This document shows positions 6,359 through 15,215 of a stretch of DNA of 64,000 bases, piece after piece. Source of the stretch: Hondaea fermentalgiana (Eukaryota; Sar; Bigyra; Thraustochytrida; Thraustochytriidae); the NCBI GenBank assembly GCA_014084085.1, contig NPFB01000091.1, forward strand, positions 62,001 through 126,000, written 5' to 3'. The notes beneath the pieces are model-generated. The model was not told where the DNA came from and ran no database searches. It worked only from the letters and a program-made list of their open reading frames with translations. Numbering within the stretch: position 1 is the first letter of the stretch; every line of letters begins with the position of its first letter. A program made the position numbers and the translations under genes.

Positions 6359-9160
6359 CTATTTTTCATTTTGTGAGACCTGCATTATGGCCAGCGTGGA
6401 GGCAAGCATGGCATGAAGCTGCTCGACGCTTCCGCGAAGCTTGCGGTTGTCCTCGATGAGGAGCTCTACAGATCGGTCGACCTTGCTCAACCAGGCTTGC
6501 ATCGACTTGAATTGCGCCTTGCTGACGCCATCGCCCCCGCTCGGCCCATTGCCCATATCGTAGTCGCTATCATCATCATTTTCGTCGTAGAGAGAGTCCG
6601 CCAAAGAGGTGTAGCTGGAGCTGCTTGTCAGCTGCGATCGAAGGTCCCCCCCGGCATCTGATTCCGCCGCCTTGACATCATCGTCGCGCGTGGCGACACC
6701 GGGAAAGCTGGTGATGAAGTTTTGCGCTCGAATTGCAGACATGTCCACCTTGGAGTTGGCACCTTTGTCGATGCTCCGGCGTCTGTTGACGTGCTCGAGT
6801 CGCTTTTTCGCGTTAAAGCGGATCTCGCTGGCCACATCAGGATATTCGTCCATGAGTGACCTGAGATCGGCCTTACTCAAGGCATAGACATGGCATTCTG
6901 AGGCAGCAACGACAGAAACGCGATGTCTTTCGGAAAGCATGCAGCCAATTTCGCCAAAGTATGAGCCCTGAATGATGCTCTTGAACTTGCGACCGTCAGA
7001 AAGGACAACCACGGCGCGACCTTCGATAAGAAAATACATTTCATCAGCGTGCTGCCCGCGCGTCGAAATGTAGTCGCCCTTTGCGTATTGCAGCGGTCGA
7101 AGAAGCGACACGGTCGACGCAATGAATTGCGGGCTCTTGTTGAGGAAAAAGGGTACTTTCGGTACGAGGTGTCGATGAACGTGCAGCGTTACCTCGGTGC
7201 GCAATTGCGTCGAGAGCATGGACAGCACGCTGGCCATTTCGTTTGGGTCTGCGTCGCTGCTTTCGCGTGTAGTTGCGTAATCAAAGTAGGTCATGATGCG
7301 CCTGCGCATGGCCCACGGCATGTGTGTTTCGCGCATAAAATCCACGAGGAGTCGCTGCTTGCGCTTGACAGCAGCTGTGCGCCTGTCGAACATTGTCATG
7401 ATCGAAGAGATGGTGCTGATAACAAAGGCATACCAGCTGACGCCGACGACCATGCAGACAATGCTGAATATTTTCTCACGATTCGTGAAAGCCCGGACGT
7501 CTCCGTAGCCAATGGTGGTGAGCGTGCTAAAGGACCAATAAATGGAACTTAAATATTTGGACATGTCGTCATGATTTTCGATGCCGTATTGTACGATCCA
7601 ACTGTCCTCCGGTATGGTGTCATGCCCTGCCCAAGCGACAAAGTACCAAAAGCAGCCAATGAGGTGCGTGACGAGGAAAACACCGAAAATAACCTTGAAC
7701 ATCCGCGTAAAGGCCCCGTTCATGCCAATGTTGTGACGCTCCCACTGCTGGAAGTAGCGCATGAGTTTGAAGACTCGCAACAGCTTAAGGAGTCGTAAGA
7801 GCTTCATGAGGCGCAACAGCCGAGGAAGTCTCGCAATCTTACCAAGTCTATTAATCTGCGCCTCCTCGACGCTTGAGTCAAGCGAGACGAATCTGTAAAT
7901 TGGCACGGAAGCAACGACGTCCAGAATGAACCATGTACGCATGTAGTGGAGAACGATGAGCTTGGGCTCAACAATTAGCTCTCCATTGGAATCCTCGTAG
8001 GCGCAAACCACATTGACGAAAATGTCCAAGATGAAGAGCACGTCGACAAGAAGATCAAAGGTGGCTGCGCCGCCGGTGACCTCAATATCGAAACACACGC
8101 GCACCGGTACGGTGAAGACAACATACAAGAGCATTGCAATCAAGAGTGCCTCCCACACGCGTCGAAAACGATTGCGGGGCAGCATGATAAACCAGTGCTT
8201 TGAAGTGTACGCCGTCTGTTTGTAGAAACGCGGATCGGTCTCGTCGTACATGTCGGCGTGCCCTGCGCCAGAGACGCCGTAGAGTCGCATATCATTTTCT
8301 ACCTGTTTAATGCCCCCGATTGTTTTCGCAGCGACGCGCAGCTTGCGCCAGTGTTTCTTTGTTGTTTCTTCTTGCTCGCTCGGTGATGCTGTATGTTCAT
8401 CTCGCGCAGGCGTAGTGATTTCTTGCTCGAGCCGTTGTCCAGCCTCAGAAGGAAGATCGCCAACAGCATCTTGCATTTCGCTGGCGATAATTTCAGAGCT
8501 CGTTCGACGCCCCCCCGAGTCTGTTCCGCTCGCGGGGCGCGATAGACTATTGCCCTTGTTGCTCTGTCGAAAGCTCTTCATTTTCATTGAGCCATCCTTG
8601 GCAGTGTGCTCCTTTGTCGATCGTCGCACGGCGCTATGTCTGGATGTGAGATCTGGAAGAGCATCTTCGAGACTTGGTGACGGGAAGTTGAAAGCGTCGG
8701 AACCGCTGCTCTCGGACGACTTTCCTTCCACATCGGTCTCCTTGCGTGATGCGGCATCAAAGCTAGCCTCTGAGGAGTTGCGTCGTTTCGTTGATTCTGT
8801 TGCAGTCTTGGTCCAAGCATTGCCTCCGTAGACCTTTCCATCAGCCTTGGTACTTTCGTTTACAGAACTTTCTGATGAGCTGGCGCAGTCGCTCTCGCTC
8901 TCGCTTTCATTCTCGCTGTCTTCTTCGCCATCAGCGACCGTGGGGAGGGGAACAACTCTTGAGCGTGGGTGTGCTGCCGCGGAGGAGCCGACGTATTCCT
9001 CGTACTGGTATTTGAGGAGGTCAACCCCGCTCGGGCCAAATCCTTCTGCAGAGTCGAGCGCGCTCAGATCGCCATTGAACCGGGTTCGTTCTCGTGGCCT
9101 TTGGAATGATTTATTGCGTTCAATTGACGCCAGGAGCTGGTTTGGGTTCACACCGCTCAT
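6359..9160 (-). CDS. Voltage-gated K+ channel with cyclic-nucleotide-binding domain (EAG/HCN/KAT type)
   Basis: A 933-residue six-transmembrane cation channel. Residues 1 to ~300 are acidic and Ser-rich and probably disordered. S1 begins near FRRVWEALLIAMLLYVVF; S4 is a dense Arg/Lys ladder (RLPRLLRLMKLLRLLKLLR); the pore has TTIGYGD with GYGD at residues 551-554, which predicts K+ selectivity. A cyclic-nucleotide-binding fold follows at roughly 690-790, with the phosphate-binding cassette GSYFGEIGCMLSERHRVSVV, where the Glu and Arg expected for cNMP contact are present. The tail ends in a probable coiled coil (VELLIEDNRKLRGSVEQL) that could mediate tetramerisation. The start ATG is the first in frame. 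Whether it is depolarisation- or hyperpolarisation-gated cannot be told from sequence. Confidence 0.92.
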   Translation of the reverse strand: MSGVNPNQLLASIERNKSFQRPRERTRFNGDLSALDSAEGFGPSGVDLLKYQYEEYVGSSAAAHPRSRVVPLPTVADGEEDSENESESESDCASSSESSVNESTKADGKVYGGNAWTKTATESTKRRNSSEASFDAASRKETDVEGKSSESSGSDAFNFPSPSLEDALPDLTSRHSAVRRSTKEHTAKDGSMKMKSFRQSNKGNSLSRPASGTDSGGRRTSSEIIASEMQDAVGDLPSEAGQRLEQEITTPARDEHTASPSEQEETTKKHWRKLRVAAKTIGGIKQVENDMRLYGVSGAGHADMYDETDPRFYKQTAYTSKHWFIMLPRNRFRRVWEALLIAMLLYVVFTVPVRVCFDIEVTGGAATFDLLVDVLFILDIFVNVVCAYEDSNGELIVEPKLIVLHYMRTWFILDVVASVPIYRFVSLDSSVEEAQINRLGKIARLPRLLRLMKLLRLLKLLRVFKLMRYFQQWERHNIGMNGAFTRMFKVIFGVFLVTHLIGCFWYFVAWAGHDTIPEDSWIVQYGIENHDDMSKYLSSIYWSFSTLTTIGYGDVRAFTNREKIFSIVCMVVGVSWYAFVISTISSIMTMFDRRTAAVKRKQRLLVDFMRETHMPWAMRRRIMTYFDYATTRESSDADPNEMASVLSMLSTQLRTEVTLHVHRHLVPKVPFFLNKSPQFIASTVSLLRPLQYAKGDYISTRGQHADEMYFLIEGRAVVVLSDGRKFKSIIQGSYFGEIGCMLSERHRVSVVAASECHVYALSKADLRSLMDEYPDVASEIRFNAKKRLEHVNRRRSIDKGANSKVDMSAIRAQNFITSFPGVATRDDDVKAAESDAGGDLRSQLTSSSSYTSLADSLYDENDDDSDYDMGNGPSGGDGVSKAQFKSMQAWLSKVDRSVELLIEDNRKLRGSVEQLHAMLASTLAIMQVSQNEK

Positions 9161-9764: not shown

Positions 9765-10437
9765 CAAAAGCCCAAGGCTTGATAAGTTGCCGAACGGTCA
9801 CCATGGTGGTGAAGGTCTCGAGTCCCTCGTTGCTTGCTTTGCCGCAATCACTCACTGTCAATCGTAACGGCACCATTATCTTCCATGGACAGTGAATGAC
9901 ACAGTGCTCCACCGCGAAGCAGAGCAGCAGCAGCACCCACCATGGCCACATTCTTGCTGGTATACTATCTCTGCACTAGTCTCGCGTTAATAACTAGTTT
10001 AATAACTAGACTTGTAACTACGCGGTGAGAACATCACGGCGCGTTCTGAAGCGAACGCGGGCTCACGGCGCTGATGCAGAGCTTCTTGGAGAGCCTCAAG
10101 CAGAGGTTCTTGCGGAATGTGGCGGCGTGGGGGCGGTGACCGTCAGGGCGCGGGCTCGTAGCGCGCCCGTAGAGGGCCCTAGGCGTCTGCGCCGCGGACG
10201 CGTGCAAGCGCGGGCGCGATGGAAGGCGGGAATGTTTCGCAGCAGCAGCAGCAGCCTCGATGAGCTGCGCAGAGCAGGGCAGGGCAGGGCAGAGCTGCAG
10301 ACACATCAGAGGGGCGCGTGAAGCTGCAGCACAGCGGCAGGAGGCCCAGGCAAACCCGCAACTTCGAAAGCACCAAGAACCTTCGAATAAATCTAGCGAG
10401 CCAGCAGCCAAGAGCAAAGACAAAGCTTTCGAGCACA
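9161..10437. other. Divergent intergenic region (K+ channel / cystatin)
   Basis: About 1.3 kb without a supportable gene. It contains the promoters of the leftward channel gene and rightward cystatin gene, a pure GCTT repeat at 9723-9765 and an ACTAGT/TAACTAG cluster at 9975-10020. The last ~200 bases before the cystatin ATG are GC-rich, with short GCA and GGGCA repeats. Confidence 0.55.
9723..9765. repeat. (GCTT)n microsatellite
   Basis: About ten tandem GCTT units in the divergent promoter region. The same tetranucleotide recurs at 35548-35578. Confidence 0.9.
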
Positions 10438-10824
10438 ATGACGGACGCAGAGGTCAAGCAGCAGGAGGAGCTCGTCGACTCGCGCCGCGAGGAGGTGCCC
10501 CGGCAGCAGAAGCTCGTGGGCGCCTTTGGCGACCTCCAGGAGCCCGATGAGACCACGCACCAGCTCCTCGACACCTTTTTGCCAAAGCTCGAGGAGACCG
10601 TCCAGTCGTCCGGAGAGAACACCAAGGTCTCGGACGTCGCAGATGTCAAGATCATTGGTGTCCAGCGCCAGGTTGTCGCGGGCACGAACCACAAGATCTT
10701 CCTCGAGATCAAGTCGTCCGGATCCAAGTTCGTCATGACTATTTTTGAGCCGCTCCCCAGCGCGCGCGCCGCCCCTGAGCTCATGGGCGTCGAGAAGCAC
10801 GAGGGCGAGGAGAAGACCGCGTAA
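10438..10824 (+). CDS. Cystatin (stefin-like cysteine protease inhibitor)
   Basis: A 128-residue protein expected to inhibit papain-like cysteine proteases. It carries the first-loop motif QVVAG (QxVxG consensus) within VQRQVVAGTNHKIFLEI, the hairpin that enters the protease cleft. An N-terminal VGAFGD supplies the flexible Gly segment, and EPLPSA could be the second loop. No signal peptide is apparent from the chosen ATG, so a cytosolic, stefin-like location is inferred. The N terminus is about 25 residues longer than animal stefins and highly charged. The frame is open upstream to another ATG at 10318, but the extension is compositionally unlike a protein, so 10438 was chosen. Codons are strongly G/C-ending, suggesting high expression. 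Confidence 0.85.
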   Translation: MTDAEVKQQEELVDSRREEVPRQQKLVGAFGDLQEPDETTHQLLDTFLPKLEETVQSSGENTKVSDVADVKIIGVQRQVVAGTNHKIFLEIKSSGSKFVMTIFEPLPSARAAPELMGVEKHEGEEKTA

Positions 10825-11618: not shown

Positions 11619-12809
11619 CTAAGGGTCAGCACCACCCAGCTGGATACGGAGAGCCTCTTCCTCGGTGAGCGGCGGCAATCGGCCAAAAGTGGCAGGAACG
11701 TTGTCCATGTACTCAACAACGGTCTCTGGCATGCCGGGCGACGATCTGACGTCGGTGTGCCGGGTCGTGGGCTCGGCGGGCGCAGCAGAAGTGCCGGAGG
11801 CACCGCTGCCACTCTCGGCGTAGCCAGCGGCGCTACCGCTATTTGCGGGCAGAATGCCCATCTCCTTGTCGATCACATCGCGCTTGCCGTAGCGAAAGTG
11901 AATCATGGGCTGCTTAAGCGGTTCAAGGTTGTCGTCGTGGCTGCTCTGCTGTGATGATGGTGCACTCGAGGTGTCCTCGCCGCTCGGGGTGGGCGTAGCG
12001 TCCGCGGCGCCTGACTTGGGCGCAGCGGCGCCATCGCCCGGCTCGATCTTGGCGATGGGCTGGTCCGTGTGCACGGTGTCCTCAACCTTGGCCAGCTGCT
12101 CCGTGAGCGTGCCAGCGACGGGCGAGCGAATGTCCACGGCGACCTTGTCGGTCTCGATGACGCAAATGACCTCGTCCACCTCGACGCTGTCACCGGGCTG
12201 CTTGATCCACTCAACGAGGTCGCCCTGCGTTACGGCCTCGCCCATGGCCGGCACGGGCACGGTAACGGGCTCCTGATCTGCGGCGGGCGCCTTGGGCGCC
12301 TCCTTGGCGGGTTCCTCGTCCTTTTTGTCGGCACCCGAGGAAGCCTTGGGCGAGGAGGCGGCAGCGTCTCCGAGCTCGATCTCGGCAATGGGTTGGTCCG
12401 TGTTGACAGTGTCCTCCACATTGGCCAGCTGCTTTGTGAGTGTGCCTGCGGCGGGCGAGCGGATGTCCACGGCGACCTTGTCGGTCTCGATGACGCAAAT
12501 GACCTCGTCCACCTCGACGCTGTCGCCGGGCTGCTTGAGCCACTCGACAATATCTCCCTGCGTCACAGCTTCGCCCATGGCCGGCACGGGGACCGTCACG
12601 GACTCCAGCTGCAGCCCGGATGCCCTGAATCCCCGGATGGACGCCGCCATCGCGCCCGCGTGCCTCTGCATCATCGCGGGCGCTGCATCCCCGGCGACGC
12701 CAAGCACGGACACGCGTCCTCCCAGGTGCGTCGCGACAGCCTTGTTGTTCCTGGCCACGCTCAGCGCCAGCGCCCTCGCCGGGCTCGCCTTGACGCACCT
12801 CGCCAGCAT
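11619..12809 (-). CDS. Mitochondrial two-lipoyl-domain protein fused to a KGD4/MRPS36 domain
   Basis: The 396-residue protein starts with a basic, Ala/Arg-rich segment typical of mitochondrial import. Two nearly identical lipoyl domains follow (about 70-147 and 181-258), each with VPVPAMGEAVTQGD and the lipoylation motif IETDKVAVD, with target lysines K111 and K222. There is no peripheral-subunit-binding domain and no catalytic acyltransferase domain, so it is not a complete E2. From about residue 298, KQPMIHFRYGKRD and the C-terminal VPATFGRLPPLTEEEALRIQLGG resemble KGD4/MRPS36, the small subunit that tethers E3 to the E2 core of 2-oxoglutarate dehydrogenase. The lipoyl domains are also closest in style to the oxoglutarate E2. 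I infer an E3-recruiting, lipoyl-bearing accessory subunit comparable in logic to PDH protein X. Alternative: a mis-joined gene model, though the frame is uninterrupted. Confidence 0.85.
   Translation of the reverse strand: MLARCVKASPARALALSVARNNKAVATHLGGRVSVLGVAGDAAPAMMQRHAGAMAASIRGFRASGLQLESVTVPVPAMGEAVTQGDIVEWLKQPGDSVEVDEVICVIETDKVAVDIRSPAAGTLTKQLANVEDTVNTDQPIAEIELGDAAASSPKASSGADKKDEEPAKEAPKAPAADQEPVTVPVPAMGEAVTQGDLVEWIKQPGDSVEVDEVICVIETDKVAVDIRSPVAGTLTEQLAKVEDTVHTDQPIAKIEPGDGAAAPKSGAADATPTPSGEDTSSAPSSQQSSHDDNLEPLKQPMIHFRYGKRDVIDKEMGILPANSGSAAGYAESGSGASGTSAAPAEPTTRHTDVRSSPGMPETVVEYMDNVPATFGRLPPLTEEEALRIQLGGADP
12036..12595 (-). repeat. Internal duplication encoding the two lipoyl domains
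   Basis: Two ~220-base segments (about 12036-12260 and 12372-12595) are nearly identical at the nucleotide level, including silent positions. This points to recent duplication or ongoing gene conversion of the lipoyl domain. Confidence 0.85.
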
Positions 12810-13500
12810 CGCGGCCGTCTACAATCCACGTGCGGAACCTCGACTGCTCGCAGGCCCCGCTCGCACCGCCAGCACCTCCAGCAGCGCTGCTCGTGCCGTC
12901 GCCGTCGTCGTCGTCGTCGTCGCAGGCGTCGCAGGCGTACGCTCGCTTCTCGCGCGCGATCCGCCAAGCTCCGGCGCTCAGGAAACCAGGCCGCGGCGCG
13001 GCGCGGCGAGACGACGCGGCGGAGGCCGCGCGGCGCAGCGCAGCTCNNNNNNNNNNNNNNNNNNNNNNNNNNNNNNNNNNNNNNNNNNNNNNNNNNNNNN
13101 NNNNNNNNNNNNNNNNNNNNNNNNNNNNNNNNNNNNNNNNNNNNNNCGGCTCGTGCGCTGCAGCCGCCTGCTGCTGCAGCCGAGCCCGCGAATCCGCGGT
13201 TTCGCCCGCGTCCCCGGGAGAAGCGGCCCGGAGAGACAGACGCAGGGCGAGGCAGGCGTAACGTCGGGAAACCGCCGCGAGGGGAACGGACAGGCAACGG
13301 GCACGTGCGCCAGACTGTTGGGGCACGCTAAAGCGCGAAGCACATTGCGCGACGCGCGAAGGGAGAGCAGAGCGGAGCGGGGGCTGCGGCGAGCCGGCGA
13401 GACGACGAGGACGCGGCCAGCCAGGCTGCCGGCAAGCCCGCCAGCAAGCCTGCTGTGAAGTTGACGAAGGGTCACAGAGGGAGAAGGGAACTGAGACAGG
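12810..13500. other. Divergent promoter region containing a scaffold gap
   Basis: The promoters of the leftward lipoyl-KGD4 gene and the rightward Ric8 gene lie here. The sequence is extremely GC-rich (GCC, CGTCGT and GCGGC runs) and is interrupted by 100 Ns. No gene was seen; open frames through it are long only because stop codons are rare in such DNA. Confidence 0.6.
13047..13146. other. Assembly gap (100 N)
   Basis: Exactly 100 unknown bases, the usual placeholder for a gap of unknown size, placed in very GC-rich DNA. Confidence 0.99.
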
Positions 13501-15215
13501 ATGCTCAAAGAGCGAGCCGCAAAGTTCGCAGAGGAGGCCGGGCAAAAGCTGACGCAGGGCGAGAGCCTTGGGAGCCTGTACGTGCGCAAGGAATGAGGAG
13601 ACGAATAGAGAGGAAACGATTGAGAGTGCATTTGTCCTCTTCTTCTTTTCTTCTTCTTCTTCTTCTTCTTCAAGCCTTCGTCTCTTGTTATACTTCGTTG
13701 GAGAACTGACAAACTTGAACAAACCATGCCAGCTTTGTGGACGAAAATGCGCAGGTAGACTTTTACAAGGACCTGGCACAATACATTCGGGAGGGCAAGG
13801 AGGTCGCGTCTGCGCTCGAAGCCACGAAGATCGCACTTTGCGAGCGCAAGCCCGCCATTAAACCTCTCAGCGAAGACCCGGAAGTGCTCGCAGGTGTCTG
13901 CGCTGCTGCCGCAGAGCATCTCGGGTCCAAAGTTTCCCACGACGCGCTCAAGTGTCTCAACAATGCATTGTTTGATAATCCGCCTGCACAAAGCGTCTTC
14001 CAGTCGATCGACCTTGCACGAGGAGCGCAACCGCTCGCGCAAGTCCTCGCTCAAACACAGGACCTTGAGGCGCTCAAACTCGCGGGAAACGTGGGAATGA
14101 TCATCATTGCCGCGCGTCAGGGCGACGCTAGTGCTGAAGCTAACGCTGGCGCTGCGTCCGAGGCGGCTGGAGTAAGTAGTCAAGATTCCAGCACAGATGC
14201 ACAAGACGAGCAAGTAGCCACCGAGACCGCCGCATTGGCCGAGGCTGCACTTCAGGGGGCGGTCACGCTCGCGGCACAGCTACACGGCAGCACTGACGGC
14301 GATGAAGAAGATGCACTAAATCTATTTGCTGGCGAGGACAAAGGCGCAGCCGCGCGCGCGGCATTGACGGCCTGCTTCAAGCTCATTTATGCTGCCATGG
14401 TCGTGCAAGCAGACGTGCTCGCCTCGCGCGCGGCCGTGTCTCGGGCCTCACGCGCGGGCATTGACGCCCAAGGACTGGCGGCCTTTCTGGACAGTCTACG
14501 ACTTGACGCGCAAGAGACGCCCATGATTGACAGGTTTGCTCTAGCAGTCGTACAGACGCTGTGTGCTGCGCAGCCCGCCAGCGACGCCACAACGAGCGAT
14601 ACGCAGCGCGCAGAGCAGCACAGCGTGCGCGAGGTTCGACTGCAAGCTGCCAGTGTGGCCATGCTCGCGTGCGAGATCGAGGGCTTTTGTGAGCTCTTTG
14701 TGCGTAGGGGCGGTCTGAAAGGACTGCTCGAGATTTTGGACTTTTCTCTATGCGAAATTGCCAGCGAGGTTACGGATCCCGTCCGCGCTGTGCAGACCGT
14801 GGGCGAACTCATGCCCTATATTATCACATGCACGCGTGTGGTCCAGGAGTCGCGGCGCGGTCTCGAGGAGGCACAGGCGCGCGTCTTTCCTCGTACAATT
14901 CCGCCCCTGGTTCGGGGAGACACCGAAACGGACGCCGCGTTTGACGCCCGGGGAAAAGAGCGACAAATGGCTGGCGATACCCCGAAAGATGTTCTCGGGG
15001 GCCGGCTCATTGTCTTCCTCACTTGCCTCAACTCGAGCTTGAAACGCTGCGTCGGTGAACTCCTTTACGAGCTCTGCGATCAGAGTCCGAACGAAATGTC
15101 GCGGCGGTGCGGATACGGAAATGCTGCGCACATGATTGCCATCAAGGCTGGGACCATTGGTGACATTCTCAAAAAGCAGGACGAGGATCGCGCGCGCCGC
15201 AACGAGGCTCAATAG
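13501..15215 (+). CDS. Ric8/synembryn-type G-alpha chaperone and exchange factor (two exons)
   Basis: Ric8 proteins fold and act as nucleotide-exchange factors for heterotrimeric G-alpha subunits. The gene model is exon 1 13501-13577 and exon 2 13733-15215. The donor GTACGT at 13578 and acceptor CCAG at 13732, preceded by a CTT-rich tract, give ESLGSL-FVDENAQVDFYKDL in frame and 519 residues. Without splicing there is no ATG for the body of the protein. Helical armadillo-like sequence includes HDALKCLNNALFDNPPAQSV, matching the Ric8 LKCLCN repeat. The C-terminal LKRCVGELLYELCDQ and GYGNAAHMIA match the conserved Ric8 end (GxGNAAGLLA). An acidic, Ala-rich loop at about 150-190 is lineage-specific. 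Its expected partner G-alpha is not in the window. Confidence 0.85.

Follow-up and report, generated by a model that had tools for sequence, protein, structure and literature searches.

A lipoyl-KGD4 fusion protein of Hondaea fermentalgiana as a candidate E3-binding subunit of 2-oxoglutarate dehydrogenase

The window analyzed here (64,000 nucleotides of Hondaea fermentalgiana; assembly GCA_014084085.1, contig NPFB01000091.1, positions 62,001 to 126,000) carries on its minus strand a gene whose 396-residue product joins two lipoyl domains to a C-terminal segment resembling KGD4/MRPS36. We regard this fusion as probably a subunit of 2-oxoglutarate dehydrogenase that bears lipoyl domains and binds E3. 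Furthermore, the recurrence of similar proteins suggests that this enzyme has its own counterpart of "protein X", the E3-binding protein (E3BP) of pyruvate dehydrogenase (PDH). The original prediction had likewise read the gene product as an E3BP equivalent, which is supported at the sequence level by i) the relation of its tail to KGD4, ii) lipoyl domains of the E2o type (E2o being the E2 of 2-oxoglutarate dehydrogenase), iii) the recurrence of the architecture and iv) a DLST in the same genome that lacks a peripheral subunit-binding domain (PSBD).

The gene and its lipoyl domains

The frame runs uninterrupted through 396 codons and a stop (11619-12809), as had been predicted, with no gap inside the gene. 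From stop to stop it spans 399 codons, being closed upstream by a TAG that is the fourth codon 5' of the ATG. The features, all on the minus strand, are as follows.

11619..12809, minus: whole coding frame, 396 amino acids plus stop, single exon as read
12819..12821, minus: upstream in-frame TAG before the start codon
12612..12809, minus: residues 1-66, Arg/Ala-rich, presequence-like by composition only
12372..12602, minus: lipoyl domain 1, residues 70-146 (Pfam PF00364; PDB matches)
12477..12479, minus: codon of K111, candidate lipoyl-lysine
12030..12260, minus: lipoyl domain 2, residues 184-260 (Pfam PF00364; PDB matches)
12144..12146, minus: codon of K222, candidate lipoyl-lysine
11877..11915, minus: KGD4 first motif, residues 299-311 (KQPMIHFRYGKRD), proposed E3 side by analogy with MRPS36
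11622..11705, minus: KGD4 last motif, residues 369-396 (DNVPATFGRLPPLTEEEALRIQLGGADP), proposed E2o-core side by the same analogy

The N-terminus resembles a mitochondrial presequence, as anticipated, in its Arg/Lys-rich and acid-poor composition (nine Arg/Lys, one Asp and no Glu in residues 1-66). Pfam recognized two Biotin_lipoyl stretches (133.6 bits against a cut-off of 22.1), and in both the ETDKV site is intact, so that the predicted pair of domains with K111 and K222 was recovered. Equally in line with the prediction, which had noted neither an E2 catalytic nor a classical subunit-binding domain, no 2-oxoacid_dh or E3_binding domain (PSBD, PF02817) was found by Pfam at E up to 10. The two lipoyl domains match at 67 of 75 amino-acid positions and 197 of 225 nucleotides, with synonymous and nonsynonymous distances (dS and dN) of 0.51 and 0.048 (ratio 0.095). 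Purifying selection has thus maintained both copies, which rules out a repeat newly duplicated in the assembly.

Profiles, structures and same-genome alignments were compared for the type of these domains. Among NCBIfam models, the pair scored 151.7 and 151.5 bits with SucB, 132.3 with actinobacterial SucB and 69.9 with mitochondrial PDH E2. For lipoyl domain 2, the best single-domain structure score was that of DLST (9njt, 65.2 bits), followed by 9y7v (labelled acetyltransferase, 57.0), 1lab (a Bacillus-type E2, 49.4) and two further DLST structures (48.8 and 46.6), while 9y7v ranked first when its two domains were summed (99.5); the matches of lipoyl domain 1 were similar. Against the E2 proteins of its own genome, the alignment scores of the two domains were 130 and 135 for DLST, 105 and 97 for the PDH E2, and 103 and 101 for the branched-chain-type E2, with identities (29-35%) that fail to discriminate among the three. 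By these scores the lipoyl domains are of the E2o (SucB) type, with their lysines in place.

Relatives and the KGD4-like tail

Three sequence searches yielded 26 relatives beside the window protein. The first, with 480 candidates, recovered the window protein itself plus five more; the second, in which only the 8000 candidates that shared the most words were scored, returned three; and the third (linkers masked, E up to 10) returned 25 of 7861 candidates, seven of them already known. P0024-P0027 were weak in the third search (E 0.12-0.97), yet each carries both KGD4 motifs.

The relatives can be classified into four categories: i) eleven of the 26 combine a lysine-bearing lipoyl domain with KGD4 (P0002-P0006, P0011, P0012, P0013, P0018, P0025 and P0027), including P0002, which also has two lipoyl domains, P0012, whose site reads ETSK, and two records incomplete at the N-terminus (P0011 and P0012); ii) four are truncated records that retain the end of a lipoyl domain (P0007, P0009, P0010 and P0014), the remnants being below the Pfam lipoyl cut-off and that of P0014 judged by eye only; iii) six keep KGD4 and a lipoyl-like domain that lacks the DK motif (P0016, P0020, P0021, P0022, P0024 and P0026), the barrel apparently being retained without its cofactor site; and iv) five are stand-alone KGD4 proteins (P0008, P0015, P0017, P0019 and P0023). 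Within the third category only P0021 passes the Pfam lipoyl cut-off and P0026 has no Pfam match; in P0024 and P0026 a lysine lies close to the lipoyl site. P0013, a transcriptome-derived MMETSP/EukProt entry, is labelled "type:complete", and thus the lipoyl and KGD4 parts lie in one transcript-derived frame in its source. The check for recurrence in other sequences was therefore positive, transcriptome-derived P0013 included, and judged from these sequences the lipoyl-KGD4 architecture is not private to the source organism.

The assignment of the tail to KGD4 is carried by such linking sequences. The window module shares two ordered motifs with the stand-alone proteins, one of which, the environmental P0015 (annotated at source as "Ribosomal protein S36, mitochondrial"), clears the cut-off of the KGD4 family PF10937 (22.4 vs 22 bits). 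Seven other relatives (P0008, P0009, P0010, P0011, P0017, P0025 and P0027) match PF10937 below the cut-off at 15.4-19.6 bits, and five of the seven carry lipoyl sequence. A hidden Markov model (HMM) of five environmental stand-alone proteins scored the window protein at 35.5 bits, against at most 7.2 for 5000 shuffles, and, over 3685 frames with overlapping loci included, ranked the gene at E 2.3e-9 with the next other frame at 0.081, although this score is not independent, since its five proteins were collected by profiles containing the window's motifs.

Human and yeast KGD4 sequences scored 25.8 and 104.9 bits against PF10937 and 21.6 and 12.4 bits against the stand-alone-protein HMM. In hhalign, the fusion modules reached 95.8 and 96.5% against an alignment of human, yeast and P0015 (30 column-shuffled decoys, at most 0.3%), and 22.8 and 53.7% when P0015 was omitted (30 decoys, at most 0.8%). 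Among solved structures no relative was found for the KGD4 segment or its alignment (best E 0.13 and 0.6), nor for human KGD4. Thus the predicted KGD4-like C-terminus held through linking sequences but not in direct comparison with PF10937 or a human-yeast HMM, and the profile check set beforehand came out in the same way, negative for direct profiles and positive for profile-profile comparison through P0015. Taken together, these comparisons support a KGD4/MRPS36-like C-terminus.

Partners in the genome and the proposed role

Three E2 catalytic domains were found in the 36.0 Mb assembly: i) a DLST (C207; TIGR01347, 485.4 bits against a cut-off of 378.65) with one lipoyl domain, in which no E3_binding (PSBD) domain was found; ii) a PDH-type E2 (C221), below the cut-off both for TIGR01349 (376.3 vs 445 bits) and for E3_binding, which it matches weakly (17.8 vs 23.7 bits); and iii) a protein (C173) that looks, from its SSDKA site, like a branched-chain-type E2, with a clear E3_binding domain (57.9 bits). 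The ordinary one-lipoyl DLST that was looked for is thus present, without a PSBD, and two E1o-type C-terminal domains accompany it. Lipoyl/biotin matches in the genome numbered 12 (two in the fusion, three in the E2 proteins, six at MKM-/FKM-type biotin sites and one other). The last (L029, G000:C30:169700-171300; match 170395-170595, minus) is a lipoyl-like domain that reads ETPEFSY at the site, without the lysine, and is followed by a tail resembling a SAM domain by eye.

A separate stand-alone KGD4, also looked for, was not found in the genome with several queries, within a sensitivity limited by introns and assembly completeness. The window's own KGD4 segment retrieved itself only; P0008 retrieved only the window's module (E 0.0033); P0019 retrieved that module first (7.4e-9) and five weaker places, two of which were inspected and lacked the motif pair; and P0015 retrieved three weak places, of which the two inspected had neither motif, and missed even the fusion, which itself indicates limited sensitivity. 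A [YF]GR[LF]PP-type DNA pattern occurred at 11 places (reversed control, 16), with KGD4 context only at that of the window.

These parts can be arranged into a working scheme. PMC9974300 describes KGD4 as a 2-oxoglutarate dehydrogenase subunit, reports that eukaryotic E2o lacks a PSBD, and gives cross-links in bovine mitochondria from N-terminal MRPS36 residues to E3 and from C-terminal ones to E2o, in agreement with yeast. In the window protein, two E2o-type lipoyl domains, flexible linkers, the first KGD4 motif and the last KGD4 motif follow one another, which by the cross-link polarity reads as lipoyl, lipoyl, E3 site, core site. From KGD4 biology, the last motif would dock on the DLST core and the first would hold E3, while lipoyl biology predicts lipoylation of K111 and K222. 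The extra arms beside E3 could then be loaded with succinyl or reducing equivalents by E1o, or by the arms that DLST itself carries, and the neighboring E3 would re-oxidize them. Because the DLST of this genome has a single arm and lacks an E3 site, the fusion would unite E3 with arms of its own.

The protein was compared with known systems. Like KGD4/MRPS36/YMR-31 (PF10937) it has the ordered motifs I-x-F-R and then GR...E...GG at its C-terminus, and the same partners are expected; unlike those small stand-alone proteins, its KGD4 part is the tail of a 396-residue two-lipoyl protein that PF10937 does not reach. With PDH E3BP/protein X it shares an N-terminal lipoyl domain (here two), the order of lipoyl, E3-binding and core-binding parts, and the lack of an active E2 catalytic domain; unlike E3BP, whose definition in PMC10156792 includes a PSBD and an E2-like C-terminal domain, it has neither of these, and its lipoyl domains are E2o-type. 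We describe its proposed action as E3BP-like, by analogy, and its tail as derived from KGD4, and do not place it in the E3BP family. The Chaetomium thermophilum KGD4, named E3BPo and present at about four per 24 E2o, is likewise a tether of E3 to the E2o core, an E3BP equivalent according to its authors, and likewise has a joined annotation, at the N-terminus of holocytochrome c synthase; however, this other half is an unrelated protein, and the portion of the paper available (PMC10203282) mentions no lipoyl domain. The genome's own DLST has an E2o-type lipoyl domain in common with the fusion, whereas the fusion has two, at 32 and 35% identity to the DLST arm, and no succinyltransferase domain.

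Several points weigh against the proposed reading: i) PF10937 had no match in the window protein (E up to 10), in the genome or in 16 of the 24 relatives scanned (P0004 and P0005 left out); ii) an HMM of the human and yeast sequences scored the window protein at 1.0 bit, whereas 2000 shuffles reached up to 10.7; iii) the bacterial PDH E2 model of NCBIfam also scored well on the lipoyl pair (134.2 bits); iv) the six relatives without the lysine motif indicate that the arm is dispensable somewhere; v) a report cited in PMC8146983 found that co-expressed MRPS36 did not raise the activity of the human 2-oxoglutarate dehydrogenase complex; and vi) lipoylation, binding of E3 and DLST, membership of the complex and flux via the extra arms are what we infer.

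Three other readings were considered. The window protein might be the KGD4 adaptor of its lineage with lipoyl domains that act as spacers or docking pieces instead of catalytic arms, as the six relatives that keep a DK-less lipoyl-like domain beside KGD4, and the five with no lipoyl domain, would allow; we consider this unlikely, for both ETDKV sites are intact, both domains are under purifying selection (ratio 0.095) and the lysine is kept in 11 of the 26 relatives.

E3 is common to the 2-oxoacid dehydrogenases, and the protein could thus serve PDH, or several complexes, as a shared lipoyl and E3 carrier. The weak E3_binding match of the genome's PDH E2 means that another E3 recruiter could be useful there, and the bacterial PDH E2 score on the lipoyl pair points the same way. 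This possibility appears quite improbable, given that SucB scores higher on the pair (151.7 bits) and also on the single lipoyl domain of P0013 (86.5 bits vs 62.2 and 48.0), and that KGD4 is a 2-oxoglutarate dehydrogenase subunit (PMC9974300).

A third reading would put the KGD4 likeness down to chance, in a tail that is short and of low complexity, or explain the join as an artefact of assembly or gene modelling; we consider it very improbable. The failure of PF10937 and of the human-yeast HMM on the window protein and an aligned module of only 41 columns would favor it, but the two ordered motifs are common to stand-alone proteins of which one passes PF10937, other assemblies show the same join, as does transcript-derived P0013, and the gene has no internal gap.

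Around the gene, exactly 100 N, probably an assembly gap or a withheld stretch of sequence, lie 5' of it and outside the coding frame (13047-13146). The neighbors are an ion channel with a cyclic-nucleotide-binding domain (6359-9160, minus), a frame with a cystatin match under the cut-off (10318-10824, plus; 17.8 bits vs 22.2) and a Ric8-like protein (13737-15215, plus).

Evolution and meaning of the fusion

Two trees, one built from 29 rows and 41 columns of the KGD4 module (5 of 26 inner branches starred) and the other from 19 rows and 78 columns of lipoyl domains (2 of 16), are poorly resolved and too short for dating the fusion. In the KGD4-module tree, the six DK-less relatives cluster with stand-alone P0015 (96/95), as would be expected if the arm decayed and was lost in that group, with gain as the alternative. 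In the lipoyl tree, the domains of P0025 and P0027 join the genome's DLST (83/87), away from the other fusions, and a single origin is thus neither shown nor excluded; the first lipoyl domains of the window protein and P0002 pair (88/82), suggesting, with weak support, that the two-lipoyl form may predate their split. One scan for bacterial references gave none, and another gave one alphaproteobacterial locus. A tentative and rather doubtful proposal is that, across a wide range of protists, 2-oxoglutarate dehydrogenase has long had a lipoyl-bearing KGD4 as its own "protein X", that the lysine-less and stand-alone forms of related lineages are stages of arm loss, and that KGD4 may even have arisen as the C-terminal part of a subunit that bore lipoyl and recruited E3.

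The original prediction knew of no description of such a fusion, and none was found in the open literature searched, a scope outside which preprints and most subscription papers lie; the available portions of PMC9974300, PMC10203282, PMC8146983, PMC7050145 and PMC13311838 make no mention of one. Thus known parts occur here in a combination not found described.

Only recently has it become clear how eukaryotic 2-oxoglutarate dehydrogenase retains E3, with KGD4/MRPS36 serving as the adaptor, which is small and flexible. A naturally occurring KGD4 with lipoyl arms of its own would be a second way of coupling E3 recruitment to swinging arms, in a layout like that of PDH E3BP but assembled from other parts, with an unrelated adaptor. 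Moreover, its joining to lipoyl domains would give independent genomic support to the view that KGD4 belongs to a lipoyl-dependent complex and not to the mitoribosome, and the DK-less relatives form a natural series in which the function of the extra arm can be studied.
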